Below are positions 503 to 57,600 of a stretch of 64,000 nucleotides of DNA, in pieces. Numbering within the stretch: the stretch's first letter is position 1; each line of letters begins with the position of its first letter. The notes below the pieces were generated by a model. That model saw only the letters and a program-made list of their open reading frames with translations. It searched no databases and was not told the origin of the DNA. The translations under genes and the position numbers were made by a program. Source of the stretch: Tribonema minus (taxonomy: Eukaryota > Sar > Xanthophyceae > Tribonematales > Tribonemataceae); contig JAFCMP010000135.1 of assembly GCA_017506865.1 (NCBI GenBank), forward strand, positions 620,001 through 684,000. Reading direction: 5' to 3'.

Positions 503-3500
503 CTTGATGCTGATGAAGCGGAGGCCGTTGGTGTGCGCCTCCAGCGCGCCGGTGGTCTTGCCGGTGAGGTTGGGCCGCAGGGTGAGGTCCGCCAGCCGCG
601 GCACCTGCGCGCATGTTGAAGTGCAAATTAACAACTCAGTGTTCTCTGCAAGAGTATATATCGATTTACAAAAACCATATCAAGATGGAACAGAAGGTAG
701 ACTTGTATTGAATTTCAATACTTCACACATTGTTAGAAACTAATGAAAAAATGAATGTACGACGGGGGTGGGTAGGTATGGGCGCGTGCGCGCGTGTCAC
801 CAAGAGGGCACGCAGGTATGAGGGTACGGGACAATGACAACACGTATCAATACAGCCAGGGTGCAAGGCATTCCGCGCGAGTGTATCGCAGCCTCTCTCC
901 GGGTGCGCCGCGTGCGCAACGTGTGCGCAGAGCGCTGCGTGTCTCCACGCCACGCGCTGCCATGAATGCATCAGCGCAGAAGAGGAAATGCGTACACAGG
1001 GAGCGCACGTGAAATCACGCGAGGCAAACGTGTCAAAGGGGGCAGATGCGCGCCTGCGCATGCGCGCGCGGTCTGTGCACAACGCTCCCGCAGCCGCCGT
1101 CGATAGCACGCGCTGTGACAGTCGCCGTCGATAGCACGCACTGTGACGACCGAGTGCGTCTGCGGTGGGCAGAGCGCGCTTGCATCATCTCGTCTTCGTG
1201 CCGGTTGTAACAAGCATCGGCGTCGCCTGTAGCGTCATTAACATGCGCGAAGTTCCTGCCTTGATGTCAGCAATGCGCCTGCATTCATCTGGGCATGCAG
1301 CTGCTCACCTTCATGTCGGTCATGCGGATGAGCTCGGCCTGTACCAAGTTTCTACCTTGATGTCAGTATGTCAGTAATGCAGGTCAGCTTTGACTGCTTT
1401 GATCCGGACATTTTATGTAGCTGCTCACCTTCATGTCGGTCATACGGATGAGCTTGGCCTGTACCACCAGGTCCGCTTCCTCCACGGCTTTCTGCTCGCG
1501 CAGACGCAGGCGCTTGCGCAGCTCCTGCACCTGGCGGAAGGCCTGCAGCAGCGATCAGCAAGAGCCGTGCGCATGTCGAAAACGAGTCAAAAACGAGCAC
1601 ACCTTAGACGACGGCGCAGCCTACACGAACGAGTTGTGAGGGTTTGTCGCGACATCCCTGACAAAAATTATGTTGTGACACTGTCGCATGCGACCGCCCG
1701 ACTTGCCGTCGTCTGCACTAGAATGAGGGGATTCCAGTTAACTGCCAGTAAAGAGGCTGCTGGGAAAGGGGCGGCCGTGCGTTGGTGCTGACCGACGCCT
1801 TGGCACCCTTCTGCTACGGATGCCAACAGGACGGCATGAGCATCGGCGGGCAACCCAAACCCAAACACTCACCCTGCGCAGGCGCGAAGGCAGGTGAAGC
1901 GCTTGGCTGCGAGCATGCGGCGACACTGATGGGATAATTACGATGCCAATCCTAACACTGACCCAACCTTGACCCTAACTTCACATCCACAACGCGAGCG
2001 CGCTGTGTGTGTGGCAGGAACCAATCAGTGTGCGCATTAAAACGGCGCTCACTTCTTGCGACAATTCCGCACATGGGTGTTTCCGGGAAAAGAGGGTCTT
2101 CTCCAGCCACTTGCGAGGATGGCGCCTATAGAAGAAGCAGGTGCGCACTGCATGCCATTGCTCAGCGGCACGCGCGCAATCGCATCTGGTTCTCATGTCA
2201 CGCCGGCTGCAGGCAGCTGGCGGCTGTCTTCCGAATATCTGTTTTGTATCAATATAATCTCCACATTCGTACGACCACAACTGAAGGCGTCCCAGACGCC
2301 TATAAACTTACACACGTCAAGTAGAAGTATTTGGTGTAACTACTTCATCCATTGAGATAGAGGATGGCCTGCCGGGCTACTACTGTACTTCAAGCACAAG
2401 CGCACGCGCAGGCGCACACGCTGCCGGTGCGCTGCGCGCGTAGCAACGATGCTGCGACAACAGCGCACCCTCTACGGAACTCCCCGTATGACGAGGCCAT
2501 GTCACAGCGCTCACCATGCCCAGATTCTGCTGATCCAGCGAGCGGAAGGTGAGCTCCTTCACAAAGGCCTGCTTATCGCGCCCAAACCTGGCAGATGGAG
2601 GGGGAACGGGGGGGGGGGGGGGCAGGGGGGCAGCGACAACGGGCTGCTTGAGCACCCTGGGACCGCACAGAGGGTATGCAATTGCTTGAATCTTCACGTG
2701 CCAGAGTGAAGCGTGGCCGCGAGTTTGTCGCGCTGCAGTCTTAATACTTCAACTCCAACCTCAACTGCACCTCAACAGCTCGACGATGCGGCGCGACGCC
2801 GCCATCGCCAGCGCCTGCCCGGGCCCGTAAAAGGGTCAGATGATGACGCACGCTTCACACTCAAAGTAAAACCCAACCTCGACGGCAGTGGATATACTTC
2901 AACTGCAAATGTATCGACAGCGGCTGGTTGAACGATGATGGGGCCTTTCGCACTTCAGACTGAACTTCAACTGCAAGGTCGTCATGAACTTCAACTTCAA
3001 CTGCATCAACGGCGTGCGCGCGTGCGCACCTCTCGACGAGCTCGGCCATGCGGCGCGACGCCTCCTTGCCGAGCGCCTGCCCGTGCGCAAAGAAGTCAAA
3101 TGACTCAAAGTTCCAAACTACAATCCAAACATAATATACTTCAACTTCAACTGCATCGACAGCTCGCGCGCACCTCTCGACGAGCTTGGCCATGCGGCGC
3201 GACGCCTCCTTGCCGAGCGCCTGCCCCGGCGCAAAGAAGTTGATGCGCAGGTAGAAGGAGTGGTTGTCCGGCTCCGGCATGACGACGTTCTTGATGGTGT
3301 GTATGGAGAACGGCACCGGCTGGCCGTTGATGGGGCACAGCACCACCTCGCGGTCCATGTCGACCTTGATCTGGTGCGGCATGGTGTCCTTCGGGTACTG
3401 CGGTTTAAACCAATGGCAGGGGTGCGGTGGGGGGGTGGGGTTAAGGACGATAACAAGCTCCTCAACAGCCAGAGGTCATTCGGAAGGGTGGTTTGCACGA

Positions 3501-6500
3501 GGCATGAGCTGAGCGTTGAAGGGCACAGCACCACCTCGCGGTCCATGTCCACCTTGATCTGGTGTGGCATGGTGTCCTTTAGGTGCTGCGAGTTTTGGAC
3601 CACTGGCAGGGGTGGGGGGGGGGGGGTGGTGAGCACGCTGATACGCTGCTCAAACCAGCGGTCGTGTGTGTGGATTCAATGGCACAAGGCATGAGTGAAA
3701 GACCGATGGGGCACAGCACCACCTCACGATCCGCATTTGATCAGGTGCAGCATGGCATCGCTAGCATACTGCAGTTTGGGCGCACGGGGCAGGGGGCAAA
3801 GCGTGAAGCGTCAACAAGCGGGTATCACAAGTCAATGTGCAGGGGATCGTACGAGGCACACCAGGCAGGGCAGCTCGCGCACCCTGCCCCTCACTGTGCA
3901 CTTCGCAATGAGACTCTGTGGGGCATCAGCAAGGCAGCCCTGCTGCACAAACACACACCCCAGGGGGGTGGAAAGGGCGGCAGCCCTGCCTTGCGCGTCT
4001 GTCACTGGCAGTATGGTGCCCATCAGGCATCCCGTTGTGCCATGTCTCACATTCTGCTGCAGGTACATGCCCCCTCCCCCCCCCCTCGTGTGCTGCAATG
4101 CGTGGGCACCTATACCCCCATACCGCCCCCCATCACATACCTGTTCCGTGACCTCGTACAAGTCGAAGACCTCGTGCTCCATACCCCCATCACCCCCCCT
4201 CCCACTCTGCAAAGCATGGGCGGCCACAACCCCCCACCCCACCCCCCGCTACTGCATACCCCCCCGCTACGTACATACCTGGTCCGTGGCCTCGTACACG
4301 GCGAGGTCCTTTACCCCTACACACCCCACACGTACACCTTCCCCCCCTCTGCTAAGCACGGGCTCCTCCTCCAATGTGATCTTACGTGCGCAACACCCCT
4401 GCCCCCCCCCCACGCGTGCAATGCGTAGGCGCCGATACCCCCCCCTCGCTACTACATACCTGGTCCGTGGCCTCATACACGCCAAAATAAATGACCCACA
4501 AGTACCCCCTCTGCAATGCATGGGCGCCCATACTCCCCACCTCCCCCTCCCCCCCTACTGCATACCCCCCCGCTACGTACATACCTGGTCCGTGGCCTCG
4601 TACACGGCGAGGTCCTCCACCTCCTCCTCCTCGCTGTCGTCGCCGCGGTCCTTGTCGCGCCGCGCCATCTCGCTCGCGCGCTCCTTCGCGCGCCGCTTCA
4701 GCAGCTCGCTCATCCTCTGCTCGCGCTGGTTCAGCATGTCCTGGACCTGCAGAACAGCGCAGCGCGGCAGCAGCAGCGGCGGCGGCGCCGCGTCGGTGAG
4801 ACTGCAGTTGAAGTTGCCATGGCAGGGCGTCCGGGGCGATGGCGCGACTGCGATTCGAGCATGCTTCGCGCGTACATTCGCTTGAGACCCAGCGAGAACC
4901 GCCGCGTGTGCGGCGGCGGCGCGTCGGTAAGACTGTAGTTGAGGTTGCCGCGGCGGCGCGGGCGACGCTGCAGCGCGCAGCGTCACCGGGGCCACGGCGC
5001 GACTGCGATTCGAGTGCGTCATTCGGCCGCCGCCGCCGCCGGTGCCTCCGCTGCCGCCAAGGGGACCAGAGCCAGCGCTGCGTCGATGTCCCCGCCTGCC
5101 GCCGTCGGGCCCTGCATATGAGTCTGAACCTGATCCGCGCACGAATCTGTATCTGATCCGCTCTCGTGCTCTGGAGGCAGCGCACTGCGACTCACTTCCC
5201 TGCGCACGTGCACTGCCCCACCACAGCCGTGTTGCCGCGACCGCGCAGCCGGCGCTCCGCGGGCCCTTCATGCACAATACTTGCACCGCACTCTGCATGT
5301 ACCTGACTGCACTGTGCTTGTACTGCTGTTTTGTACTGTGTACTGCTTGCGAACTGCCTCACCTCGGCCGTGTTGCTGCGGTCGCGCAGCTGGCGCTCCG
5401 CGGGACCCGCATGTACAATGGTGTAGCTGATTGCACTGTGCTTGTACTGCTGTAATGCACTGTGAACTGCATGTGGACTGCCTCACCTCGCACGACGTGC
5501 GGCCGGCACTCCGCGCGACCCGCATATGCACAAGTGGGTGTACTGTACACTGCATGTGTACCTGGCTGCACTGAACTGGTGTACTGTACTGTGTACTGTA
5601 TGTGGACTGCCTCACCTTGACCTTGTCATTGCGGTCGCACGGCCGACCCTCCACGTGACCCGCATACACAATGGTTGCACTGCACACTGCATGTGTACCT
5701 AATTGCACTGTACTTATACTGCTGTACTGTACCGTGTACTCTGTGTGGACTGCCTCACCTCGGCCGTGTTGCCGCGGTCGCGCAGCCGGCGCTCCGCAGG
5801 CCCCGAGTGCTCATTGGGCCTTGCCGACGCCTGCAGTTAGGTTAGGGTTAGAGTTAAAGTTAGGGTCCGTCAGCAGCGCCATGGATCGTCGTGCAACAGT
5901 AAGCGAAAAAGGCAAACCGCAAGAGGTTGTAAGATCAACACATGCGCTTCCCGCTCCAGCAAATGACGATCCAGGGTTGCCTACGGTTCGTCAGCAGCGC
6001 CATAGAGCATCGTGCAACAGCAAGCGAAGATGGCAAACAGCAGGAGGTTGAGCGATCAGCACATGATAAGCTTTTCGCACGAGCACGGCGTTCCAGGGGG
6101 GTGCTAGAACATGACTGTGTGTCAAGCACCGGTGCTGGAGCATTGCAGGAATTGGTGCTGGTACGTGAGAGCGTTCTAAAATTAATGCTGGAGCATTCCG
6201 AATGGCGGCTGCTTCAGAGCGACGACTGATACCCTGCGCCAGTGTGAAGAAGTGTTCATAAGCAGCATATGGATGCCAGGACTGCGTTTGGACAGGCTCG
6301 CGCACCCTCAAAGCCGGATTGCAACTGCTACTGCGCCCACGCTGCGGCTCGTAGACACCACGCTGCGTGCTGTGCTGTTCTTGAGGTGTTGGATGACTTT
6401 AGTTGAAAGCTCATCATAGTACTTTCTAACTCAGCACACTGAATGCAAGTCGACGCTGCGCAAGCTACACAATGCTTTCTACATTCAGTCAAATGCAGCA

Positions 6501-9500
6501 CACATGAGATACATACCCAGAACACCCAGTATACGTACAATAAGTTAATAATCCAGGATACATGAAAGCACTTTAAAAGTATTAGCATCCTCCTCACCAG
6601 TACGCTTCGCGCTACTTTGCCCAGCACTTGCCTTCTTCTTGCCCTTGCTCTTGGCCTCCGGTTCGGAGTCCCCTTCTTCCTCCTCCTCCTCCTTGTCGCT
6701 GTCGTCGAGCGTGTACGAGATATCGGTCCACTCCTTTCCGCCCTTGGTCAGGAACTCGGCGGGCTGCACTCGCAGATGCAGAAGCGGTATTAGAACAGCG
6801 GCGCGCTCGTTTTCATGCCGATGTACACAACTACACTCTAAAAGCGCCTGGTGTTTGTCTTATGATGCAATAGACGTACAAGTACAAACATGAAGTACGA
6901 GAAATCGGTCCACTCTTTACCGCCCTTGGTCAGGAACTCGGCAGGCTGCAGGCGGGCGTGCAGATGCAGAAGCGGTATCAGCGTGTGTATCCTGTGGCGC
7001 GTTCAATTTCATGCCTATGTACATCATTACAAGCTGCTAGCATTTCAACTGGTGTTTATCTTATTATGCAATAGACATACAAACATAAAAATACGACATA
7101 TCGGTTCGGTCCTTCCCGCCCTTGGTCAGGAACTCGGCGGGCTGCAGGCGCGTGCACAAATGATGAAGCGGTATTAGTACAGCGGCGCGCTCACTTCCAT
7201 GCCGATGTACGCAACTACACTCCAAAAGCGCTTGGTGTTTGTCTCATGATGCAATAGACGTAAAAGTACAAACATGAAGTACGAGGTATCGATCCACTCC
7301 TTCCCGCCCTTGGTCAAGAACTGGGCAGGCTGCAGGCGCGCGGACGCAGCGTAATGAAGTCCGTGGTGAGTATTTGTTGCGGCGCGCACCATGTCACCAC
7401 CACTCTGTTCGAGACCTCTGATGTTTGTGTTATGACGCGATCTTCCTACGCACGCTATGTATGACTCTGACTGACCGTGACCGGCAACGTCGAGTTCAGT
7501 ATGAATCCGATGACAATCAGAGCCCCACAACTTGCGATGGCCGCAAGGCAGCGGCTGCTGGTCTGGTCTGGTTGCTGCATTACTGAAACTGTTGCCACTT
7601 GCTGTCGAGGTAAGCGCTCTGCCCGATCAGCAGTACCCAAACGCCACCAAGTTCAATTGTGGATATAGCTGATGGCAGCTGACTGCGGGACATGCAGTGC
7701 GCAGCACAGCGCAAGCATCAACGCTTTGCAGGCTGCAGGGTTGAAGTTGAAGTTGACAATCTCACCTCGTCCTTGTGGACCAGCAGCACGTCGCCAATGG
7801 CCATGGAGAACGTGTTGTGCTTGTAGTTGCTCCCCTTGCGTTGCTGCGGTGGGCGCAGACGGCACGATGAAACAGAGGCACGGCTCAGTTCACGCACCAT
7901 CAACTTCAACTGCAAGCAAATTTGATGGTGCATGTTCAACACTTCAACTTGAAGCATAACTTGTGCAAGTTCAAGACCGTTTGTGTCGACCCGATCACGA
8001 TGCGCCTCTCTCCGGAGTGGCTCCAGTCGCGGAAGCAATTGATGTTGCAGCCGCTTTTCGTGCGCGTGCGTGCGAGGCGCATTCTACCAAACAGGCCTGG
8101 GCCTCTTTGGATCTCGGCGGTATATGCATCGAGACAGAGACGTGTTACGCCACGCGTGCGTGCCCAGTTTGCCGCACGTCAAGATATACCAACTCACACT
8201 CAACGTCAACCTTGCAGTTGTGGTTGCAGTTGAAGCTACTGTACATTAACTGGTATATCCCCCCTCCCTCACACATCTGTACACGCCGCGCTCTCTTCGG
8301 GATAAGCACGTTTATGAGGCCGACTTTGAGGCTGACTACCAATGACAACGCGCACGGAGCAACTGTCAACCGACACGCCACCCCCCCTACGTGCAGTGAC
8401 CCACTCTTCCCACGAACAACAATTCTGATACTCAAAATGACCTAGAAGTATTAAGTTATCCAAGCTTATTGTAACAAACAACGCGACGCGCCACGCGACG
8501 CTGCGCTCTCCTCTCACCTCCTCTAAAATGGGCACGTCCGCGAGGCTGACGTTGAGGCTAACAACCATGCCGTTGCGCGCTGAGCTACTGTCTCATCAAC
8601 CTGCCTTTGCGTGCAGTGACCCCCTCATCCCCAGATCTAAAAACAAAAAACAATGTTTTGCAATATATAATCCAGGTATCTAAGCTTATTATGATAAACA
8701 ACTAGACGCATTACAAACTGCGCTTGCTCACCTCCTCCGGAATGGGCACGTCCGCGAGGCCGACGTTAAGGCTGAAGACCATGCCGTCGCGCGCGCGCGC
8801 CGCATCAACTATGATATTCATTATAAACTATTTTGAAGTACCTAAGCTTGTATGAGTTAACTGCTGTAGCTTTATTTGTTGGCCGCGCCCCAACGAGATT
8901 AGGGGGACCGTTTCTGTGTCTCGTAACAGATCTGTACAAGGTGTGCTCTCTCACCTCCTCCGGAATGGGCACGTCCGCAAGGCCGACGTTCAAGCTGAAG
9001 ACCATGCCGTCGCGCGCGCGCGCGGCGTTCTTGGCGTTGATGTCGAGCGCCCTCTCCCTGAAGTCCAGCCCCAGCGCAAAGCCCAGGGACTTGGTGAGGT
9101 GCGGCAGGAGATCCGCATGGCGCTCGCGCAGGAACGCGCGCGCCGTCTCGTACACGTCCTGCGGCACGCATGCGTATATGTAGGGTTAGGGTTAGGGTGA
9201 GGGTTTGGCCTCATGGCGATGTGTAGGGTTGGGGTTAGGGTCCCGCCTCATGGCGTCGCATCTAGGGTTGGGGGCGGCGGTCCGTGTGGCGCTTGCGCAG
9301 AAACGTGCGCGGCGCCTCGTACACGTCCTGCAACGCGGGCACGAACATGTAGGGTTAGGGTTTGGCATCATGGCGTCACAGTTAGGGTTAGGTTGTCTCG
9401 TAGACGCGCCGCAGCGGGCATCAGCCGGGATGGGTGGCGTGCACTTCACGGCATCGCAAAGCGCTGCCTCGTACACGTCCTGCGGCGCGCGCGCGAACAT

Positions 9501-10847
9501 GTAGGGTTAGGGTGAGGGCTAGGGTTTGGCCTCATGGCGTCACAGCTAGGGTTGGGGACGGGGGTCCGCGTGGCGCTCGCGCAGGAAGGCGCGCTGTCTC
9601 GTACACAACCTGCGGCGCGCGCAGATGTAGAATTAGGGTTACGGTTTGGCCTCATGGCGTCGCAGTGAGGGTTAGGGCCGGGGTCTCGTAGACGCGCCGC
9701 AGCGGGCATCAGCCGAGGGAGGGGGCGTGCGCTAGTCAACATCGCAAAGCGCCGTCTCGTACCACGTCCTGCGGCGCACGCGCTCGATTGCCAAGAGCAC
9801 GAGGCGGCGACGGCGCGCGGCGCACCGGAGCGGCGCCTGCGGGCATGTGCGCCGCTACCACCAGCAGCGCCTATGCGCCTCTGAGGTTGTAGTTGGGATG
9901 CATGTTCCTGCACACGTCGGCTCCAAAGCACCCTGTCTAATGCGCGTGGTTTCTAGAAAGTCAGCGTCTAGAAAGTCAGCGCCTGTCTTATGACGCCAGG
10001 TGCAGCAGCGCTCGATGCAGGCGCAGCGCTGCCCTTGCGCGCCTAGGCACCGCCACTGCCATTTGGGCCAACGCTTTAAACCAGAAACGGCTTGAGAATA
10101 CAGGAAACAGCCTGGAATCAGCCTGGAAGCGCATGGCGCGGCGCTCCTCACCGCAAGCAACGCGTCTACGCAGCAAACACCTTGAGCAGCACGCCCGTTC
10201 GCAACTCCAAGCCGCAGCACGTGTGGCGCCTGCAGCACCGCCGAGCAGGCATGCATTTCACCGGTGGCAGCTTGATGAATGCGAACAGCCTAATGACGCC
10301 CCGTGAAAAAGCCTAATATCACGACCCCTGTGGCAGTGCGCCTCGTCGCGAGCGACGCCCCCGTCGCTGACTCAGCACGCACCTTGAGCGGCACGCCGCC
10401 GCGCAGCGCGTCGCCACTGCGCGCGCACACCTGCAGCACCGCCGAGCGGGCATGCGTTTCACCAGCGACAGCTTCATAATCATCAACAGTCTAGCAACGC
10501 CCCCTGTGGCAACGCTCCTCTTCCCCCGCGCCGACTCATCACGCACCTTGAGCGGCACGCCGCCACGCAGCGCGTCGCCGCAGCGCGTGTGCGCCTGCAG
10601 CAGCGCGGCGTACGCCTCCTCGACGCGCGGCGGCGCGTTGACAAAGAACGAGCGCGTGAGCGTCGCGCAGTACGAGCGGTAGCGCGCGCCGACGGACGCG
10701 AGGATGAGGTCCGCGCTCATGGGCGCGTCGCTCGACTGAGCGCTGATGCGCAGGTCATACGCGCCGCCGCTCTGCACGATGGGCGCGTACGCCGTCTCCA
10801 CGTCCGCGCTCTCCACCTTGAGCTTGATCTGCGCGGCGGCGGCGGCA

Positions 10848-10879
<32 letters not shown>

Positions 10880-11107
10880 TTAGAATTGAATCTTGACTAG
10901 GGTCACAGCGCACCATCGTGTAGGGAAGAGCATATGAATGTGTAACACTGCGCTTGAGCTTGATCTGCACGCAGCGGCGGCGGCAGCGGCTGCGGCGGTT
11001 AGGACGTAGAGCTTGATGAGCGTCCCAGCGCACCATCGAGTAGCGAAGCGCATACGAATGCGTGAAACTGAAACTGCCACCTTGAGCTTGATCTGCACGC
11101 GGCGGCG

Positions 11108-11139
<32 letters not shown>

Positions 11140-14100
11140 GACGGCAGCAGTTGGAGGTCGAGCTTGACGAAAGTCCCAGCGCACCATCCTGTAGCGAAAA
11201 GCATACGAATGCGTCAAACTGAAACTGCCACCTTGAGCTTGATCTGCGCGCAGCGGCGGCGGCGGCGGCGGCGGTCAAAAGGTGGGGGTTGACGAGGGTC
11301 CCAGTGCACCACCCTGTAGCCAAAAGCATATGAATTCGTAAATTTGCATAGTGGCCCCCAAAGTCTAGCCGGTCGCGGCGGCGGAGCACGCAGCGGCGCG
11401 TCTGGGGCCGCAAGGCGGGGCACGGGGCGTTGAGCGGTGTGCATGGAGTACACGGATGCAAGAGGGATGCGCGTGCGTTGCGCAGCCGCGCGTGCGTTGC
11501 GCAGCCGCGCGTGCGTTGCGCAGCCGCGCGCGCGACGCGAGCGCAACGTTGCGTGTCTCAGCGACCAAGTGGATAGGCATCATCTGTGAATGAAACGGAA
11601 ATGGAGGCATCGACCGACGGTGCCAGTGACGGGGACGGTGGCATCGACCGGCGGTGCCAGAGCGGAGCGCGCGTCGCTGTTTCCACGAACATGCGCGATC
11701 TGCAGACAGGCCTGGGCAACAACGCAATCGCAGTGACCAGCGGCACATCTGACCCCTCATCGCACGATCGTGCCCGTCACATCCGGCGCATAGCCGCTGG
11801 CGAGGCACGGGGGGGGTAGGTATCGGGGGCATTGGCGCACAGGTACATACATACCTTGGAGGGGTTGGGGATGACATCCTCGACCTGCGCCAACAGCGCA
11901 GCGTCCTGGCAGAGGGGTAGGTATTGGAGGCATTGGCGCACAGGTACATACATACCTTGGAGGGGTTGAGGATGACGTCCTCGACCTGCGCCGACAGCGC
12001 GGCGTGCGTGACGGTGCTCTCGCTCTCAATCACGTCCTCCATCTTGTCGACGAAGGCCAGCCTCATGACCTGCCGCGCGGGGGGCGCAGGAGGTGAGGAT
12101 GGGCGCTAGGCATGAGATTTCAAAAGAAGAAGCCGCTGCTGCCGTGTGCCTTGAGGTGCCCCGATAAGCCGCATCTGTGCCCGCCGTGCAGCAGCGCTCG
12201 CGAATTGTGTAAACGGGTGCCCTGCGCCATTGCATTGGAGTCTACAGCCCCACGCGCTGCGCACCATAATGCTGTGGAACTCGCAGAGGTTGTGTCGTGT
12301 TGGGCAGTCAGCAGTGCTCAATTACTGCCTGCCCTAACCCTAACCCAAACGCTAACTCTGCCAACCCCAGTGCCGTGTTCGCAGTGATGATGTCAAGCAT
12401 ACATGGCTGGCGCCGCCGCGGGCAGCGGGACGCCCGCAGGCGATGGCGACACGGACGGCGGCAGCATCGCCAAGCGTATACTTTGAAGTATACTTCTAAG
12501 ACTGCAGCAAAGCGACAGACCGCACGCAGCCTCCGGCAGTACTACTGTGCACAGGCTTCCCAGGGGCAGCTTTTTGCACAATGAATGGCCAGTGCGCAAA
12601 CTAGCAAGGTTGTGGTTGCCTGTCATGATGTACAGCATAGGACGCCGCATTGGCACTGCAGTCGCCAGAAGGGCTGCTACTCATGGCGCTGTTGTCAAAG
12701 CTACCTTGCTGGATAGGACCGCGACTTTGCGCATACGAAGTCCTACAGGTCCGCTGCTCCACACCCAACGGTCTTGGACAAAACCGCTGTGACACTGAAG
12801 CGCTGTGATGATGTTGTCATCTCAGTCACCTTGCTGGGCAGAGAAGCGGCTTTGCGCATGAGCCTGTCGCCCTTCTGATCGTAACGACATTGCCGGACAG
12901 TGACGCGGTGTTGCGCCATAGACAGTTCTTTTCAGTGCGTGCATGGAGTGTCGCTGCATCACAGCCAACAGTCATGAAATCGGTGGGAACCAAGTGCCGT
13001 CAAGATCACCCTGCTGGACAGATGCCGCACCACAGCTCGTACTTTACTTCCAAGGTACCAAGACACATGGTGCCACATCGCAATCACCTTGCTGGACAGC
13101 GACGCGGCTTTGCTCATAAGCTCCATTGTCACCATAGTAGATACCTTTTCTGGCGCCTAAAAACTAAAAGAATCGTTGAGGCACTAAATTACTGCAATGG
13201 TGCCATATTGCAATCACCTTGCTCGACAGCGACGCGGCTTTGCGCATAAGCTCGATCTCCTCTGCGTCCTTCACCGCCAGCACCGTCCCCAGCGCCGCCG
13301 CTACGTCCACCGCCTGCACGCCCGCCGCCGCCCACGCCGCAGCCCACGCATCCACGAGCGCGCCGGAGGTTCTGATGCGCGCGCGGTGAAAGTAAGTTTC
13401 CAAAGCTTGGTCAATGAAGAAGACGGCGTGATGCACGCAAGACTGGCACGCAGAGCCTGGCTATGTGCGGCGTGCTAAGGGCGTGATGTGCGACAACGTG
13501 CGGTGGCGAGTGAGTTGGCGGCAGTTGCGGCAGTTACAGCCGCCTGCACGCCGCGGCCCACGCATCCACGAGCGCGCCCGAGGTTCTGATGCGCGCGCGC
13601 GGTGAGAAGTACGTTTCCAAAGCCTGGTGAACAGAAAGGACGGCGCCATGCAGCACACAGAGTCTGGCTATGTACGGTATGCAGAGGGCGTCATCTGCGA
13701 CAGCGTGCAGTGGCGAGAGGGTTGACGGCGCTTACGGCCGCCTGCACGCTGGGGTTCACGCGTCTACAAGGGCGCCGGACGCTCTGAGACGCGCGCGGCG
13801 GGCACGGCGGACGGCACGCAGCACACTGTTGAAGTTCTTTGAGTTGAAGTTCAAGTTGAAGTTCACACAATGTGCGCGTGCTGATGCGCGCACTGCACAT
13901 GCGGAGTAGGCGTGCAGCACCGATGTTGAAGTTTTCAAAGTCGAGATGCGCACATTGGATCTGCTGATGCGCACTCTGCGGGCGCAGCGTAGGCGTGCAC
14001 GCGCATTGCTTCCAAAGTTGAAGTTTGCACACGGGACGTGCTGACGGGCGCACGGCGGATGCGGCAGAGGCCCACAGCATGAATTTGTGAAGTCTGTGAA

Positions 14101-16871
14101 GTTCAACTGCGCAGAACGTGCTGATGCGCATGCAGCGGACGTGTGGCAGCGGCACTACCGCACGCGACCAAAGATGTAAGGGTTCAGAAGGTCAAATGCG
14201 CGCTTCGGTCGTAGTGCCATAATCTCTGACTGATAGGCAGCACATGCATACACTCCTACTTCTCAGGTACTGGCAAAAGTGCACGTTCGTCGCAGTGTCA
14301 GAGCCTCTGGTCGACAGGCGGAGAATACGAATACACCCCTACTTCTTCCGAGTATATACTGGCAACAGCTCCGCGCGCTCACTTCTCCTTCAAGATGGTC
14401 CCCAAGCGCAGCTCGCTTCAAATACACACTGGCAAAAGTTCAGTGCTCACTTCAAGTATACACTGACAACTTCAAGTTCACACTGGCAAAAGTACCGTGC
14501 TCGCTTCTCCTTCAGGATGGTCCCCGATTGCAGCTCGCCTCAACTGCATACTTCGAAGTACTGGCGAAAGTTCAGTGCTCACTTCTCCTTCAGGATGGTC
14601 CCCAAACCGCAGCTCGCATCAACTACACGCTGGCAATACTTCGAAGGAGTTCATTCAGTGCTCACTTCTCCTTCAGAATGGTCCCCAAGCGCAGCTCGCC
14701 GCCAGCCTCCGCGATGGCCGCGATGAGGCGCTTGTGGTGCGCCTCGTTGCCGTCCTCCTTGCTTCGCGGCAGCAGTTCCACGCGCAGGCCGCCGTACTCG
14801 TTCGAGCCTGCCGCCGCCGCGCGCGCCGCCGCCTCCGCCACCGGCTCCATGATCCTGGCAGCGGAAACGCACGTGACAGCGCTCGGTGAATGTACTCCGA
14901 TAGCTAGTAGTGTACCACAAGTGGTACACAAATGCACGCAAATGTGGCAGTACTCGTTCGAGCCCGCCGCCGCCGCGCGCGCTGCCGCCTCCGCCAGCGG
15001 CTCCATGATCCTATGCATGCAGCAGCGCTGGGTGAGTGTGTGCAAAGAAGCTAGTAGCGAGCGGTGATACACCACCCGTAGTACGTCATGCACACAAATG
15101 CCGCCACCTCCGCCACCGGCTCCATGATCCTGGCGGCAGGGCAGCGACGCCAGCGAGTGTATTCCGAAAGCTAGTAGCGGTAGTGCATCACAAGTGGTAC
15201 GCAAATGCACACACATGCGGCACTGGTCCGTCGATGCAATCAGGTGCCGCCGCGCGCGCCGCCGCCTCCGCCACCGGCTCCATGATCCGGGCGGCGGCGG
15301 AGACGCTTGCGGCAGTGCTCGGTCAGAAGTGTGTTCAGAGAATAGCGAAGTTGCACTGTTCACAGCTCTGCAATTACATGCATGTCGCACCAGTGCGACA
15401 TCACCAGTCTCGCCATCCACAAACGGCGCCACAGCCGCGTTTGCCAACTCACGACATGACCCACGCGGGAGCAGCAGCACCACGGAGAGGCAGCGACTCA
15501 CTTGCACTTTCCCGAGCTGCTGAGCACAAAGAACGTGCCCGCCTTGGTGAGCATCATCACAGTGTCCGGCATCTCGTAGCCCGTCACGTGCAGCTGGAAG
15601 GCGACCGACTTCTTGTAGATGAGGTCCTGGTCCTGCTTGCCGTGCACAATGCAGATCACCGACGCGCCGCCCCACTGGGGGCCGGACGCGCCTGCGCACC
15701 GCAGCGGCAGCAGCGGCAGCAGCAGCAGCAGCGGCAGCAGCAGCGTCAGCAGCAGCGGTGCTCAGCAGCAGCATCAGCAGCAGCAGCGGTGCTCAGCAGC
15801 AGCAGCAGCAGCAGCGCTCAGCACTGGCATCTGCTGCTGCAACGCTCAGCAGCGGTGTCAGCGCTCGGCAGCCGCATCAGCGCTTAGCAGCGGCGTCAGC
15901 GCTCAGCAGCGGCATCACCGCTCAGCAGCAGCATCAGCGCTCAACAGCGGCATCAACGCTTAGCAGCGGCATCAACGCTTAGCAGCAGCATCAGTGCTCA
16001 GCAGTGGCACAATCAGCAGCCGCGTCACTCAGTAGCAACATCAATCTTTTGATTCGTTTCCATCAATGCTCAGCAGCGGCATCAACACTCAGCAGCAGCA
16101 CGAAATGCTCAGCGGCAACACCAAATGCTAAGCAGCAGCACTAGCTTCAGCATCCAAGTCACGTGCGAGTGCTCATGGGATCAGGATTTTGTACGACAAC
16201 AGATATGCGGTCCGTTTGTCTACATGAGATCTGGGTAGGCCTTTCAAGTGGGGGCTGCTGATAATCAGTACGCAGTGCGGCGTGTGCAAAGTCCGCAGTG
16301 AATGAGCCGTTTGGTTACTCCTCGAAATATAAATCAAGCCAGGCATTTAGTCTGATGATACTTAATACCCTCTAAGCCATTGTGATCCCAAAAATCTAAG
16401 GTGTGCAAGCTAGCTACAAGCACTGGTCTGGAAGGCAGCGCTTGCGGTCCAGTATAAAACTTGTCATTCTACACATTACATAAGATGGCAAAGTGCCAGT
16501 AAGCATGGAGGTCAGGTCATGAGGCAGCAGGGCTTGAATAAGAAGGACAGGCGTGGCCACGCTTGCAATAGTGGCCACCCACCAATGGTCTTTGAAAGTA
16601 ACTGAGCATCGAAGTGAATTCCCAATGACATAAATCGTGTTGCTCTTGATCTGCATATGATATCAGCACGCGCGTATGCTGGCCAGAACACGCAGCCTGC
16701 TGACGATTAGTGTAACATAGTCGACAATCAACGAGTTAAGCGATATCCTGTGTCAACAGCGACATCACCATGTCAGCATAATGCGTCGGAGAAATGCTTA
16801 CCTTTCATCCACTGAGAGTGGATGCGGCGCAGTCTGGAAAGCATGCGGCCTGCATCTATGTGAGCAGCCAT
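503..16871 (-). CDS. SPT16: SPT16, FACT histone chaperone large subunit (3' end beyond window)
   Basis: SPT16 pairs with SSRP1/Pob3 in FACT, which removes and restores H2A-H2B around RNA and DNA polymerases in the nucleus. Exons, 5' to 3' on the minus strand: 16871-16802, 15691-15502, 14854-14666, 13371-13218, 12069-11956, 10828-10547, 9158-8955, 7843-7766, 6763-6632, 5830-5759, 4746-4585, 3397-3174, 2587-2515, 1542-1429, 604-503. All phases close, giving 720 codons of a protein that is usually about 1,040 residues. The N-terminal lobe is in exons 1-4 (HSQWMKG; ALVDAW; VLAVKDAEEIELMRKAASL). The catalytically dead peptidase-like domain is in exons 5-8 (APIVQSGGAYDL; KSLGFALGLDFRE; GMVFSLNVGLADV). 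An acidic linker follows in exon 9. The middle domain is in exons 11-15 (YPKDTMPHQIKVDMDREVV; INGQPVPFSIHTIKNVVMPE; GALEAHTNGLRF). The acidic tail is off the window. The exon 9 donor must be GC (AAG|GCAAGT); the GT sites nearby break the frame. Introns hold degraded copies of exon edges. Confidence 0.95.
1303..1346 (-). repeat. Degraded copy of SPT16 exon 14 3' edge
   Basis: GCTGCTCACCTTCATGTCGG followed by TCATGCGGATGAGCTCGGCC repeats, with few changes, the donor and last 40 bases of exon 14 at 1423-1465. It lies downstream of the real exon in transcript direction and keeps the GTGAGC donor. Confidence 0.85.
2776..3087 (-). repeat. Two degraded copies of SPT16 exon 12 3' edge
   Basis: Copies at about 3037-3087 and 2776-2833 match the end of exon 12 (coding for GKEASRRMAKLVE) at 3174-3235. 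The nearer copy keeps the GTGCGC-type donor region. TTCAAC-rich sequence accompanies each copy, so the repeat unit includes the start of the intron. Confidence 0.85.
3521..3775 (-). repeat. Two degraded copies of SPT16 exon 12 5' edge
   Basis: About 3521-3590 and 3711-3775 repeat the first part of exon 12 (coding for KDTMPHQIKVDMDREVVLCP), the nearer copy almost exactly. Both lie upstream of the real exon in transcript direction. Confidence 0.85.
4133..4480 (-). repeat. Three degraded copies of SPT16 exon 11 3' edge
   Basis: Copies at about 4272-4310, 4447-4480 and 4133-4175 match the end of exon 11 and its GTATGT donor (4579-4624). The surroundings are C-rich with CATACCCCCC motifs that also repeat. 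The 396-codon plus-strand frame through this region is repeat-driven. Confidence 0.85.
5222..5662 (-). repeat. Four degraded copies of SPT16 exon 10
   Basis: Copies at about 5618-5662, 5484-5523, 5364-5412 and 5222-5273 repeat the exon at 5759-5808 that codes for ERRLRDRGNTAE, most with a GTGAGG-type donor. Spacing is about 120-140 bases, with TGTACTG-rich spacers. Only the copy at 5759 has an in-frame acceptor. Confidence 0.85.
6898..7342 (-). repeat. Three degraded copies of SPT16 exon 9 5' edge
   Basis: Copies begin near 6898, 7098 and 7283, about 190 bases apart, and match the start of exon 9 (coding for PAEFLTKGGKEW) at 6710-6763 with its CTGCAG acceptor. The unit also includes flanking intron sequence such as the CAATAGACGTA stretches. 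Confidence 0.9.
8285..8802 (-). repeat. Three degraded copies of SPT16 exon 7 3' edge
   Basis: Copies at about 8731-8802, 8513-8580 and 8285-8345 match the end of exon 7 (coding for GMVFSLNVGLADVPIPEE). Divergence rises with distance from the real exon at 8955. The two nearer copies keep the GTGAG donor. Confidence 0.9.
9180..9783 (-). repeat. Copies of SPT16 exon 7 5' edge interleaved with TTAGGG repeats
   Basis: Four copies of the exon 7 start (CTCGTACACGTCCTGC on the plus strand) occur at about 9285-9345, 9468-9505, 9565-9625 and 9752-9783. Between them lie telomere-like TAGGGTTAGGG stretches near 9181, 9351, 9502 and 9632. The telomere-like tract therefore seems to be part of the duplicated unit. 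Confidence 0.85.
10180..10460 (-). repeat. Two degraded copies of SPT16 exon 6 3' edge
   Basis: About 10381-10460 and 10180-10262 match the end of exon 6 (coding for LLQAHTRCGDALRGGVPLK) and its donor at 10541-10600. They share a downstream tail (GGGCATGCGTTTCACC and GGCATGCATTTCACC), so the unit includes intron. Confidence 0.85.
10840..11275 (-). repeat. GGC-rich copies of SPT16 exon 6 5' edge
   Basis: The motif ACCTTGAGCTTGATCTGC plus a (GGC)n tract is repeated near 10950, 11080 and 11230. It copies the exon 6 start (IKLKVES) and acceptor at 10810-10830. Each copy is followed by similar sequence (CAGCGCACCATC, GAATGCGTGAAACTG). The (GGC)n tracts vary in length. Confidence 0.85.
11473..11532. 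repeat. Three-copy 18-base tandem repeat
   Basis: GCGTGCGTTGCGCAGCCGC occurs three times head to tail in SPT16 intron 5, followed by a CGCG-rich run. It does not resemble the flanking exons. Confidence 0.85.
11836..11905 (-). repeat. Degraded copy of SPT16 exon 5 3' edge
   Basis: GGTACATACATACCTTGGAG and the following 50 bases match the end of exon 5 at 11944-12010 (coding for LSAQVEDVILNPSK) with its GTATGT donor. The GGGGTAGGTAT spacer is also repeated. Confidence 0.9.
12699..13117 (-). repeat. Degraded copies of SPT16 exon 4 3' edge
   Basis: Copies at about 13081-13117, 13003-13022, 12826-12862 and 12699-12745 match the end of exon 4 (AATCACCTTGCTCGACAGCG on the plus strand). The nearest copy is the best preserved and keeps the GTGATT donor. 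Confidence 0.8.
13555..13800 (-). repeat. Degraded copies of SPT16 exon 4 5' edge
   Basis: About 13555-13640 repeats ACGCATCCACGAGCGCGCC and the following intron bases (TACGTTTCCAAAGCCTGGT) found at the real exon 4 start (13346-13412). A weaker copy lies at about 13745-13800. Confidence 0.8.
14381..14610 (-). repeat. Degraded copies of SPT16 exon 3 3' edge
   Basis: TTCTCCTTCAGGATGGTCCC occurs at about 14581, 14507 and 14383, matching the end of exon 3 (LGTILKEK) and its donor at 14661-14690. Spacers carry repeated ACTGGCAAAAGT motifs. Confidence 0.9.
14950..15290 (-). repeat. Degraded copies of SPT16 exon 3 5' edge
   Basis: Three copies (about 14950-15015, 15095-15135, 15243-15290) of GCCTCCGCCACCGGCTCCAT plus GATCC match the exon 3 start (IMEPVAEAAARAAAAG) at 14805-14860. 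Together they form a false 370-codon minus-strand frame. Confidence 0.9.
15700..16135. repeat. CAG/GCN repeat and GCTCAGCAGCGGCATCA array
   Basis: SPT16 intron 1 contains a long CAG-type tract (15703-15830) that grades into about fifteen imperfect 15-21-base units of GCTCAGCAGCGGCATCA and CTTAGCAGCGGCATCAA type. This looks like simple-sequence expansion; no coding role is supported. Confidence 0.85.
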
Positions 16872-21524: not shown

Positions 21525-24500
21525 ATGTCAGCGCGCGCAGCACAGCTCACGCCGCTAGTCTCGCTGCTGCCGCTGCAGACGCGCTGCGCCTCTGCGCAGC
21601 CGGAACGAACGGCATCCAGCGCTCTGCCCGCACCGGATATCGCAGCAGCTGCAGGTAAGCTGTTGTGTGAGGACAACAAGCAGGCGCGATGCACAGATGG
21701 AGTGATGCAGTGATCCAGTTGACCAATGCGCTGCGAGCGCTTGAGGCAGCTCTGCGCGTGCCTGACAGCAGTGACCTTGCCGCGCTTCGTGAGGCGCACA
21801 GCGCGCGGCACGAGCGTCGTTTATCAGGCGCTTGGCCAAAGCTGAGGCCTCCGCCCCGGTTGCAAACAGCTTGGTGCGATGCACCGCAAGTCGGCAGGCG
21901 ACTGTGCTCGACGCCGTGAGTCGTGAACGAGTCTCGCCTCACACATGATGCAGGAAGCACACCTGTTCATACGGCGCGGGTCTAAAACAGCTTGTTTGCT
22001 GCCATCCAGGCCTCCTCGCCCGCCTCTGCGTAAGGCTCCATATACTCGCAGTGCCGTACAATGTGGATAATCATCAGCACGTCAAAGGCGATTCGTCCAC
22101 AATGCGCCTGCGTGAAGGCTCCCAGCGTGCTCCAGGACCTCGGGTGACGCGACGGCCGTGGAACACTTTCTACTTAGAGTCCAATGGCACACGTGCTTGT
22201 GCTCCGCAAGCTGAGCCGTGCGTCGCCGCAGTTGCGCGTCCTCTTGTATATGATGTGGAAATGCTCGTGCGCCAGCGCCTGTTGTCTGCGGTCCCGCCGC
22301 TGCCCGCACGTAGCGGTCGGGCTACACCCACGATGCCGCACTCGCTCAGCTGTGGACGATCGAGTCGCGACTGCCTGCTTGGCTAACTCGCCTTTGACAC
22401 GCAGCTGGAGTACGGTCTGTAGCCGTTTGTTGCCAAAATGATTTTAATTTTGAATACCTGAAGGGCAGTGCGCGACACGGTTCGGCACCAATGCTGTCGG
22501 AGAGCGCGATCGCGTGCGTCGCCCGCGCCGCGGACATCACCGCCAGTGGCACGCCTCCGCCCTTGGCGTGGGTGCTCATGCATGCTGCAGCGCTGGCGAA
22601 GCTTGGCTTGGACCTGATGCTGCGATGCGCTGCCCTCGCAACGCATGACGTGTACGCAAAAGGTCAAAGCTATACTAACCTGCGCCGGCGCGTTTGCAAC
22701 TTCAACTGCCGCAGTTGCGCCGCTCCTAGAGCCAGAGTTTGCTCACCCCGCGCCACCGAAGGCGTCGCCGGCGCCGGCGCGGCCGCCTCTCCAGGGTCAC
22801 ATCAACGAGTTCATGCCACGGATAGTGGTGGTGGGCGTTGGCGGAGGCGGCGGCAACGCGGTAAGTTATGCCTTAGGGCGGCTTTTACATGTCCTGCATT
22901 CGCAATCGGTATTGCGTGTTTTGAAGCGTCACAGCAGTTGGCGTGCGCACGCCCCTGGCGGCGCATCCATCTCATTTGACAGCAATGTGAAGCCATCATA
23001 CTGTGACGCCTGCACCTTGTCATCTCATCACTCTGCCCTGTCATACACCAGCACTACATCACGCAGCCGACTGTGTTGCCGCACAATTACTCCCACTAGT
23101 CAGTTCCACCATCACTTGCCTATGTAGGCGCATGGCTGCTGCCACCGTGTGCGCCGCCCAGTTTTTGTTTCTTTGCTTTGCCCGCCAGCCGCGTTAGACC
23201 AGCTTCACTGCTTCGTGGACGAAGTTGGGGTGAACAGTATTAGGGTTAGGGTTAGGGGTAGACTGCGCCCACAACGCTCAGTCTCGCGGCAGCTGCGCAA
23301 GGCGTGACGCGCGACGTGTGTGCAGCGAGTGCGGCCCAGAGCTTAGGGCTACTGTAGGGTTAGCGCTAGGATTGCATGCGGTGCCGCCCTGCTGCCCTTG
23401 CTCATTTCCCTGCGCTCCGTCGGGCTGCTTGCCAGCAGCGGCGATGAATGCGCACAATGCGACTTCCCCACTGCTCATGTGGAGATCACTTGCCCTGAAC
23501 CCCCCCCCCCCCCCCCCCCCCTAATAAAACACGCAATATACCGGGACCCTCAACTCACCTGCACAACCAAATGGTACTCCGCCCTTGCCCCCCCCTGCCC
23601 CTCCTTGCAGAGCATTGACGCCTTCTTGGGGTTAGGGTTAGGGTTAGGGTTAGGCAACGGCCGCTTGAACTTCTTGTCTCTCACTGTCCACCTTACACAC
23701 CCTATCCGCGCGCCCATGGCCGCACCCGTTTAAGTCGTTCTGAACACCCATTCAGCTCATTGCGGCTAGGCTTTCACAACGTCCGAACTTCAGCAAACGA
23801 TGCATGTCACGCTGCCAACATCCGTGTCTCTGAACGTCTACTTTTCACACTCCCTGGCCGCGAACGCAAGGCCGCACCCAACTCGACGAGCTGCCGCGTC
23901 TGCTGAAGTGACTCTATTGCATGTTGGGGTTGTGCCCCCCCCCCCCTCCCCCCCCCCGCGCGTGCAGGTCAACAACATGATCTCCCGTGAGCTGCAGGGC
24001 GTCGAGTTCCTGGTGTGCAACACGGACGCGCAGCACCTCTCCACGTGCCGCACGCCCAACAGGGTGCAGCTGGGCCGGTCCTCCGGGGAGGTCAGTGGCG
24101 TACACATGTTGACTGAGTTTGTGGCGCATGTATGTATATACTTCGAAGTACATGTAAATCTGTAGCATGGGCATCGGTGCTTAGTATGGCGGTGCCATAA
24201 CCCTAACTCTGACTTTCGACCTAGTTCAATCCTGTTGTAATATAAGATGTTCCAATGGATAGTGCATACCTCAGGGGCAGGGCTGAGTCTAGTTCTATGA
24301 GTGTCTCTGGCAAGTCCTGGCAAGTTATTGCAATTCTGGTATTCCCTGTGCAATTGAGTGATCCGCTGGCCTTTGTACTGGCCTTTGTACTGCGCCGACG
24401 ATCATGATCATGAATTATCATATGATCACATCACCTGTTCTTCCCGCCAGCTTGAGGCACTGCACATCGCCACATCTTCAGCAAACCTAACCCTGACCCC

Positions 24501-32630: not shown

Positions 32631-50359
<17,729 letters not shown>

Positions 50360-52711: not shown

Positions 52712-53240
52712 TTAGTGATGCCGCCGAGGCCACTTGAGGTGCAACATGTGCTGCCGCTGCTGCAGCAGCCTCTGATGCTGGAGCAGCTGCTGCTGCCACC
52801 GCTGCTGCTGCCGCCGGAGTAGTTGCGCTGTGCGCCGCCGCTGCTGCTGCTGCCGCTGGTGCCGCCTGTGCTGCCGCCGCGGCCCCTGATCCAGCGGCAG
52901 CTGCGTCGTGTGTTGCTGGAATGGCTGCGCCATAAGCGCGGCCAGCCGCTGATGCAGTTGCCGCTGCCGGAGCGGTCGCGCCTCCACTGGCAACCGCCGC
53001 TGCCACTGTACAGTTGCCGCTGCTGATGCTGCTGGTGCTGGTGCTGCTGCCGCTGCTGCCGGTGCCGCTTGTGTTGCCGCATCCTCAGCAGCGTTGTCTG
53101 CAGCCGCTTGAGGAGCCGCCTGCTGCAGCACCCCCGCCCATCCAGAGAGTGCTGGTTGCAGCGCTTGCAACGTGCCCGCCACATACGCAGCATCAGCGAT
53201 GTCGCAGGCGCTGGTAATGCCAAGGCCGCCATGCCGTGTT
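52420..53240. repeat. GCN/CAG simple-sequence region
   Basis: This stretch consists of GCTGCTGCC-type triplet repeats. It gives long Ala-, Gln- or Leu-rich frames in every register on both strands (for example 222 residues of mostly alanine on the minus strand, 52338-53006). It borders the retrotransposon frame and may be the decayed or expanded upstream part of that element. I do not call a gene from these frames. Confidence 0.75.
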
Positions 53241-54669: not shown

Positions 54670-57600
54670 TCAAGAGGAACTTCGTTGAAGGCAGCGCGCG
54701 CTGAGGGAGAGGATCTGCTGCTGGAAGTCCGAGGCGCTGCACCAGAGACAAAGAGGCAGACAGACATCCCAAGATAAGTACATCAGGCGCACTGCACGTT
54801 GTTGTAGGTCCATGTACTGGGACCTATGACGTTTTGCACAGGCCACTTGTCGGCACTCTGGCTCTGTGCCTGTACTGTAAGTATCTTGGCGGACGTCGAC
54901 GCTGTGTGTGACATCTGTACTGAGCCTGTACTGTACTACCATCCAGCGGCGGCAGCGCTCACCTCTTGCACTCCCTGTCGAAGGACACGTACACCGTGGG
55001 CACCGCCGCCCCACCAATGATGATACAAATACGGCGCACTAACAGTATTCAAATCAGTGCTCAGCAACAGCAGCGCTCACCTCTTGCACTCCTTGTCGAA
55101 GGGCACGTACACCGTGGGCACCGCCTCGCCGCCGCCCGCCGCCTCCGCCGCGACGCCGAAGCCATAAGGCGTGAGCGCCTGCATCTCGCAGCGCCGCACC
55201 GCGCACGCGACGGGCACCGCCGAGTAGCGCGCCACAAAGCTCAGCAGCTCGTCCTGCAATGTGCGCGGCGGGTGGGGGCGGATGGCGTGAGCGAGGCTTC
55301 GTCAGATGATTTCATGTGATGATGTCGCGCGTACCCTATGATTAGGGCTTGCTGAGCACTGCCGAGTGGCGCGCCACAAAGCTCAGCAGCTCGTCCTGCG
55401 CAGCGCGCGCGGCGCGGGGGCGGGCGCGGCGCGAGCGAGACTCTTCCGATGATGTCTGCCTACTTTTATAAACAATCCTCTGCTATCGTAAACCAAGGGG
55501 CACCAGCCGGTTCCGAAGCAGGTTGAGAGCACGGCTCAGCAGCTCGCCGTACATGCGGGGGCGGGTGGCGCGAGCGAGGCTTCACAAAGTTACTTCTGCC
55601 TCATGTGGTGGCATTGCGCGTGCCCTATGCTTAGGGTGTGCTGAGCACTGATGAGTGGGAGCGTCACTTGCCGTTGCCTGTAGTTGAACCATGATCAATC
55701 TCGCCGGGATCTCTGGTGGTGCGTGTGGTGCACTGCTGCTTGCACAGCGCAGTTCTGCTTGCCCGGAAGTGCCTTGCTTCTCCACGCAGTTTATGAGAAG
55801 AATGTCTTGTATTGTGAACTGAAAGCAGGACACCGACTGTTTTCAAAGCAGGTTGAGAGCGAGGCTCGGTAGGCTGCCCTGGATACAAGGCGGGTAGCGG
55901 CAGTGGGTGCGGTGAGAGGGGGACGTGCAGACAAAACGTCCGCGCGTCGCCGCCTCGCAAAAGCGCGTGCATTTCAACGCGGCTTCTTGCGTTCGTGCAA
56001 GCGCTTGAGGCCAAGTGCGAGTACAGGCCGCATGGCCACAGACAGGGTCGGCCACAGTTCAGAGCGTAGCTCGCGGCCTGGGACACGCGCCAATTCAATT
56101 GCGCCTGTTCGTGCAACATCACGCATCACAAGTACGCCTGTTGTGCCGCACAAACTCCAGCTGTATCGCTGCTCGGCAGTGATGCATAAAGTGCGCGAAG
56201 CTGCAGTACCACTACTCACTTCCCGAACCGATACGTGTTCCTTCTCTGACGCACTGCGGCGACAGCGAGTCGAGTCAACGAACCGCGCTGAGCATCACTG
56301 CCAATTCTGCACCGGAGTCAGCAGTCAATGTCGCCACCACATTGCTTCTTTGCACTGCCCCCCCCCCCCCCCCGCTCAAGCACGACCTGCTGTTATTGTT
56401 TGAGCTTCAGCCGTACCCGCCGCTAGCGCTGGCTGCAGTGCTGCCCTCGCGCAACCTGCAGTGACGCGCTCCCTGCAACTAAGCGTGCGCATTTCGGTGC
56501 AATCAGCCATGCCTGCCGCTGGCGCTGACCCCGGGGCTGCTGGTGTTTCGCGCCCCTGCAGCTACACTTACGTCTCGCGCATTGCAGTGAGTCGCGCTGG
56601 GCATCACCATCGCCGCTGCGCCCCCCGGTGAGCGCTGTCGCCCGACCCCCCCCCCCCCCCCGCTGAGCATCGCCATCACCACCACAGGCGCGCTTGAACA
56701 TCTGCGGCCGTGACCGCTGCCTCGTCGTCTCCTCGCGCTGAGCATCACCGCGCAAACTCGCACTGAGCATCACCACCACAGAAGTCGGCGGCCATGACCG
56801 CCTCGATGCGCCGCATCGTCTCCTTCCACTGAGCATCACCAAGCCAAACTCACACTGAGCGTCACCACCAACCTGCAGTCGCCATGACCGCCTCGATGCG
56901 CCGCATCGTCTCCTTCCACTGAGCATCACCACACCGACCCACACTGAGCATCACCATCTCCACCAACCTGAAAGTCGGCGGTCATGACCGCCTCGATGCG
57001 CCGCATCGTCTCCACCAGCGCCGGGTCCAGCGCCGCCGCCGCCGCGCGCCGCGCCGCGCCGGTCTCCCAGTCCGTCTCGCACTTGTCGCCGTCGTTGCAG
57101 ACCATCTCCTGCGGTGAGCGCAGCACACACGCACAGGACATGAGTATGGTGTGTACTGCCTGCAGAGTATGTAGGCATGTAGGTATGCATGTACACCTCC
57201 CAGACGGTCTCGCACTCCTCGCCGTCGTTGCAGACCACCTCCTGCGGCGAGAGCGGGGCGCGCGCGCGCATGGCGCGGTGAGTACGGTATGTAGTCTACT
57301 GCCTGTAGGCAAGTAGGCATATGCCGCGGTGCTGCCGCGTGGCGGGGTGCGGGGACAAACTCACTTTGATGTACATACATGCATGCATACGAGACGTACC
57401 TCGAGCTCGTGTATGGCGTCGTCGATTTCCTGCTCCGTGTCGCAGTGGTGCGGGAACTGTATGGGGACCTCCACCGCGACGCACGTGTCGTCGTCCTTGT
57501 TGCAGTACACCACGTCGATAGACATGAAGTCGCCGTCGATCCTGCCCACATGGATCTGCAGGGGGGGGGGTCAACGTGTGGCGATGCTCAGCGCAGTGTC

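Follow-up and report, generated by a model that had tools for sequence, protein, structure and literature searches.

Gains in intron length are usually attributed to transposons and neutral drift. Among the described processes in which duplicated or repeated DNA is tied to introns, a potato RdRp gene carries a tandem duplication across an intron-exon boundary (PMC4974935), a model based on AGGT has exonic segments duplicated in tandem (PMC3443670), direct repeats near splice sites have been reported by Rogers and Bendich in 2025 (PMC11782384), and introner elements are known, for example, from Amoebophrya (PMC7789003). The precedents are either a single case or different models, and genome-wide junction-spanning tandem arrays are not described in the part of the open-access literature that was surveyed by title and start of the abstract, most subscription papers being outside its scope. 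Here, arrays of this type are examined in a stretch of 64,000 nucleotides from the xanthophycean alga Tribonema minus (assembly GCA_017506865.1, contig JAFCMP010000135.1, positions 620,001 to 684,000), referred to as the window and numbered from its first letter, in which pieces of DNA straddling the exon-intron junctions of SPT16, FtsZ and SMC3 are repeated in the adjoining introns. The genome has 158 Mb in 554 contigs, of which about 359 kb were read in all, the window included.

The exon-edge tandem copies reported in a preliminary description of the window, made from its letters alone, are real. When the 60 bp on each side of every modelled splice site were searched against the adjoining intron, with a score of at least 46 as the threshold for a copy, same-strand copies appeared at 27 of the 72 edges of SPT16, FtsZ and SMC3 (16/36 donor and 11/36 acceptor edges), giving 56 copies with scores of 48 to 146. 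A null set of 632 comparisons, in which the edge queries were run against a sample of the remaining introns of these genes and against the antisense of their own intron, scored 34 or less in 99% of cases, the top five values being 36, 37, 39, 45 and 51. Outside the window, kinesin and tubulin genes have copies at 16 of 58 edges (the kinesin set covers 22 loci out of some 45), and the combined set contains 88 copies at 43 of 130 edges, donor (24/65) and acceptor (19/65), after the removal of nine kinesin or tubulin introns whose splice sites were poorly predicted. The enrichment on the same strand that had been named as supporting evidence is thus present: 43 of 130 edges vs 0 of 130 in the antisense control and 1 of 65 for exon-interior queries, which enter the preceding intron when the exon is shorter than 180 bp. 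Random intron-interior points match in 30/216 one-sided and 49/216 two-sided searches, a control that is not clean because such points can fall inside edge arrays. There are differences between genes (22 genes, P=0.027). The orientation of the repeats is also marked in a self-BLAST of the window with no low-complexity masking, where self-matches less than 500 bp apart are 132 direct vs 3 inverted, and those at 500-1500 bp are 16 direct vs 17 inverted.

For these counts, 39 exons were placed across the three genes, with splice sites predicted from reading frame and consensus. SPT16 (503..14854, minus strand), confirmed by Pfam SPT16, PH_SPT16 and Peptidase_M24 matches and by PDB SPT16 alignments, has 13 modelled exons (from 503-604 to 14666-14854) and 12 introns, and continues past both ends. 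FtsZ (22700..30340, plus strand), assigned from a PF00091 (tubulin/FtsZ) match at 25712-25840 together with exons read by eye, has eight modelled exons and seven introns, the start of the first exon and the end of the last not being fixed, and SMC3 (33074..47790, plus strand; confirmed by a PF02463 match) has 19 modelled exons and 18 introns, with further exons downstream, and entered the 72-edge count with 18 exons and 17 introns. The predicted donors of the 36 introns counted are 35 GT and one GC, and the acceptor is AG as set in 34, the other two having been placed one base off. A fourth affected gene had also been listed, for a "plastid-targeted" protein. In it, a Pfam search gave zero matches, so its exons count as putative, and the similar edge copies of its four arrays (54944..57320, minus strand) were judged by eye. 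At the threshold used, there are zero arrays past window position 57320.

How could introns come to carry such arrays? The reading favoured here, which is considered probable although by no means secure, is that of tandem duplications recurring preferentially at splice junctions, followed by neutral decay and resulting in longer introns. Short tandem duplications would recur at exon-intron junctions, the typical unit comprising some 46 bp of exon plus some 100 bp of intron. Splicing, as predicted from the reading frame and the GT-AG signals, would keep to the copy joined to the exon body, and the surplus copies would become intron, because any other choice inserts sequence into the protein; they would then decay freely as further duplications accrue, and the intron would grow from its edges as a result. 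The excess at junctions would reflect where duplications arise more than which of them selection keeps, a candidate source of the bias being a hot spot of mutation associated with transcription, splicing or chromatin. There is also a bolder version, put forward only tentatively, according to which splice junctions are duplication hot spots in this lineage, where a process coupled to transcription, to splicing or to exon chromatin tandem-copies about 50 bp of exon with 100 bp of intron and acts as the main intron-growth engine of the genome. The strict polarity of the copies, with those of exon starts lying upstream and those of exon ends downstream, is found as first described, but it is not evidence by itself, because only the copy joined to the exon body keeps the protein intact.

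Two results go beyond the trivial: arrays are in excess at exon edges, and they extend into the exon for a bounded distance. Of the 28 arrays tested in the window, random placement in the same introns would put 10.9 at an exon edge, and 26 are found there (P=6.7e-10); this test omits two arrays that touch exon edges, 14791-15323 (upstream exon unmodelled) and 38767-39312 (weak), as well as 46939-47200 and 47748-48149, then outside the modelled introns. In the kinesin genes L041 and L042, whose motor exons were known and which were picked from the match list before any repeats were seen, 13 of 14 arrays lie at edges vs 4.3 expected, the edges being here the ends of hidden Markov model (HMM) matches and not splice sites. 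Since one of the 13 overlaps by 7 bp only, a stricter count was made that requires at least 8 bp of exon, and it still leaves 12 of 14 at edges (P=4.3e-6). As for the reach, the exon portion of the best copy measures between -4 and 86 bp (median 46, none above 100; 38 edges), although the window exons are 72-315 bp long. The relative reach is not uniform (Kolmogorov-Smirnov P=0.001, n=26).

Is a hot spot needed at all? If neutral tandem duplication took place uniformly everywhere, with the coding ones purged and the ones overlapping an edge merely visible, it would be unnecessary, and the polarity would be explained by selection alone. Edges are easier to detect because the protein holds one copy fixed, but the simulated advantage is 1.3-1.4 fold, which is too small for detection bias to be the source of the excess seen in the window and in L041/L042; the window excess persists even if edges are taken as 1.5 times more detectable (13.4 expected, P=1.9e-7). 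The rarity of interior arrays is hardly an effect of age, because the simulation still detects most of them (90-100% at 0.1 changes per site and lineage, 68-90% at 0.15). Uniform duplication also sits badly with a reach into the exon of at most 86 bp, with the near absence of intron-only matches (1/88 copies, the other 87 spanning the splice junction) and with three stretches between genes of the window, selected by hand (7.9 kb in total), which contain zero arrays vs 7.8 expected at the intron rate.

There are, nonetheless, several observations that weigh against a junction bias, the first three of which are those that uniform duplication would produce. In the first kinesin batch, just 9 of 18 arrays lie at an HMM-match edge (6.8 expected, P=0.16; two nested interior rows, L022 and L031, included, and introns with a possible missing exon excluded), a figure that becomes 11/18 with a slack of 30 bp (P=0.018) and 13/18 with 60 bp (P=0.0006). 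Around the ends of kinesin exons, the coverage by local repeats has a flat profile, at 4-24% from 0 to 1000 bp outward, although this profile is blurred by unmodelled exons nearby, and local direct repeats make up 9.8% of 40 kb of random loci. Splice-like signals show no clear enrichment in 12 random-locus arrays (P=0.11), a very young tandem duplication of 101 bp, 97% identical, is wholly intronic (L030, 3459-3660), and SPT16 itself offers two counter-examples in the form of intron-only arrays, at 4779..4960 and 5861..6065 (both on the minus strand), about 33 and 31 bp off an acceptor, respectively. Furthermore, the window is the discovery data. With all this on the scales, uniform duplication is regarded as unlikely, though it is the alternative that fares best. 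One of the random-locus arrays, L040 2925-3480, lies about 260 bp downstream of an RRM-family match on the same strand, and its shared unit, which reads as an acceptor followed by coding sequence, may well represent the next RRM exon. A second TTAGGG-like tract of the window (5838-5868) adjoins the intron-only array at 5861..6065.

The copies do not code for protein and decay as non-coding DNA does. Where the 56 copies of the window derive from exon, they mismatch at 8.6, 7.8 and 16.8% of first, second and third codon positions, for which the simplest reading is a change of about 8% in the intronic copy, whatever the position, to which the true exon has added a similar amount at third positions. 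Besides, 20 of the 21 indels in these stretches are not multiples of three and break the frame, which rules out the copies as coding alternative exons. The claim that farther copies are more decayed stands as an average, since at 14 of the 17 edges with several copies the nearest outscores the most distant (P=0.006), and fails as a strict gradient, because the top score often belongs to a copy in the middle. Could the copies at junctions be retained by selection, as spare splice sites or exonic enhancers that help the true site to be recognised or make regulated alternative splicing possible? The units are centred on the junction, and 60 of the 67 copies that align well have an intact GT or AG, both of which would fit. 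Yet this conservation is close to the neutral expectation given by the dinucleotides on the exon side (P=0.08 for donors and P=0.10 for acceptors), and selection on the copied splice sites, which an early subset with 42/44 intact had seemed to favour, weakened with more data and that fairer control. The splice sites at edges with copies are neither weaker nor stronger than at those without (P=0.73 and 0.68), and the exon-derived parts accumulate the frame-breaking indels mentioned above. The copies show no clear sign of function, the proposal that they form arrays of decoy or alternative splice sites did not find support in these data, and retention by selection is judged improbable.

The structure of the arrays is mostly that of same-strand tandem repeats. 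The distance from the true edge to the closest copy is 79-238 bp (median 144, intron making up about 104 bp of it; 27 edges), and the spacing within arrays is fairly regular. Units taken from junction to junction align over their full length, with an identity of 0.59-0.79 per eighth vs 0.49 when shuffled (24 pairs), in an alignment whose anchored ends favour the ends and from which pairs differing by more than 60 bp in length were excluded. The spacer alone is homologous in 29 of 50 cases (z>3; six of the 56 could not be scored), which rules out, as the general case, a simple insertion model of copy, foreign spacer and copy. From the junction-to-junction alignment and the homologous spacers it follows that most of this is tandem duplication, with a rapid decay, in part through indels, of the intronic portion. 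What speaks against tandem duplication as the whole account is that 14 of 50 spacers have no homology (z<2), so a clean tandem unit does not hold for every copy, and that some copies at 96-97% identity lose similarity abruptly beyond the copy (L042 3138-3206; window 25568-25615, on the exon side), so a second process may contribute. The pasting of junction-centred segments from pre-mRNA fragments or by template switching, in place of whole-unit tandem duplication, would explain both observations, but it is very improbable given the regular spacing, the homology of over half of the spacers and the ungapped display from which the abrupt loss was read, in which indels could mask homology.

Among the arrays of SPT16, all on the minus strand, several exons are flanked on both sides. 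This is the case for exon 3174-3397 (donor side, 2746..3240, two copies; acceptor side, 3319..3777), exon 8955-9158 (donor side, 8454..9026, two copies; acceptor side, 9112..9783, four copies), exon 10547-10828 (donor side, 10161..10606, two copies; acceptor side, 10813..11342, three copies), exon 13218-13371 (donor side, 12818..13256, and acceptor side, 13327..13797, two copies each) and exon 14666-14854 (donor side, 14357..14699, three copies; acceptor side, 14791..15323). Donor-side arrays alone are found at exon 1429-1542 (1295..1466, one copy), exon 4585-4746 (4071..4617, three copies), exon 5759-5830 (5208..5805, four copies) and exon 11956-12069 (11813..12005, one copy of a 101-bp unit, 93% identical), and exon 6598-6763 has an acceptor-side array of three copies with units of about 188 bp (6713..7349). 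That the units include intron sequence, as previously noted, is seen in the array 9112-9783, where TTAGGG-like telomeric tracts (9178-9250) have been duplicated together with the junction. A GCA-rich minisatellite lies at 15688-16140, upstream of the modelled SPT16 exons.

On the plus strand, the FtsZ arrays are at the donor side of exon 24772-24864 (24841..25132, two copies), at both sides of exon 25721-25836 (acceptor, 25568..25758, one copy, 96% identical; donor, 25773..26215, two copies), at the acceptor side of exon 27434-27569 (27262..27478, one copy) and at both sides of exon 28523-28713 (acceptor, 28331..28603, one copy; donor, 28663..29628, five copies). In SMC3, donor-side arrays accompany exon 34559-34873 (34824..35134) and exon 35616-35823 (35764..36245, two copies), and acceptor-side arrays accompany exon 38642-38835 (38498..38648, with 7 bp of exon), exon 40060-40311 (39966..40098, below the copy threshold), exon 44793-45029 (44431..44842, two copies) and exon 46828-46984 (46288..46884, three copies); the weak array at 38767-39312 has an offset of 511. 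Two further SMC3 donor edges, outside the 72-edge count, carry arrays: that of exon 46828-46984 (46939..47200, one copy, 96% identical) and that of exon 47584-47790 (47748..48149). The latter exon has a GC donor (CGCCAG|GCAAGC), which is still GC in both downstream tandem copies.

Elsewhere in the window, a 448-amino-acid open frame, labelled ankyrin in the preliminary description (a label that is unconfirmed), holds an 81-bp array at 18940-19288, detected by Tandem Repeats Finder (TRF) and BLAST, which may be a protein repeat instead of an intron array. In the genome as a whole, there are 75 matches to light-harvesting proteins, and a search for the small Rubisco subunit gave zero matches. 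A light-harvesting protein fragment at locus L012 matches structures from a mixture of algae, best of all several long LHCI chains of PDB 9vfj (411-1048 amino acids among those listed), and another such fragment matches no structure. Locus L043 (G000:C259) contains 18S ribosomal DNA with apparent single-base losses in short runs, which may mean a pseudogene copy or assembly errors; an 18S probe of haptophyte type gave zero exact matches.

Coming back to the introns, the detected arrays account for 51% of the intron bases in SPT16, 32% in FtsZ and 18% in SMC3, and introns with copies are longer than those without (median 937 vs 592 bp). The data support that recurrent tandem duplication across junctions lengthens introns in several unrelated genes, as had been proposed; to call it "a main way introns grow" is, in view of these shares and lengths, fair for some genes, and as a genome-wide statement it is a lead. 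Introns that grow visibly from their splice junctions, with copies that can be dated, would make it possible to measure directly how often duplications occur, how large they are and where they fall. Likewise, natural arrays of near-identical competing splice sites would allow the rule that selects the proximal site to be read from RNA data.

Set against the systems described so far, the Tribonema arrays share one or more traits with each of them. As in the potato RdRp gene, the duplication crosses an existing boundary and the splice signals of the copy come mostly from the parental boundary; unlike that one case, in which a new intron was made (PMC4974935), many edges of several genes are involved and existing introns are lengthened. 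The AGGT model likewise relies on tandem duplication with the surplus being spliced out, but what it duplicates is an exonic AGGT segment, from which a new intron results (PMC3443670), whereas the units described here straddle a pre-existing junction. Direct repeats near splice sites are common to these arrays and to those of Rogers and Bendich, which are 4-30 bp long, stand between both intron borders and are read as insertion scars (PMC11782384), in contrast to the longer, single-edge copies of Tribonema. With introners, the likeness is that of a recurrent DNA process that enlarges intron sequence; however, these are dispersed, related elements with inverted repeats (PMC7789003), and the units here are private to each edge. 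Related sequence across introns of unrelated genes was absent from the 632 cross and antisense scores, which cover sampled introns of the three window genes, and the near inverted matches in the window were three against the 132 direct ones, in a search that leaves short terminal repeats outside. The copies largely have a tandem array structure, their splicing being deduced from frame and GT-AG only, and TRF and BLAST recover the head-to-tail, imperfect units of tens to hundreds of bp that define an ordinary minisatellite. What an ordinary minisatellite does not account for is their placement at splice junctions.

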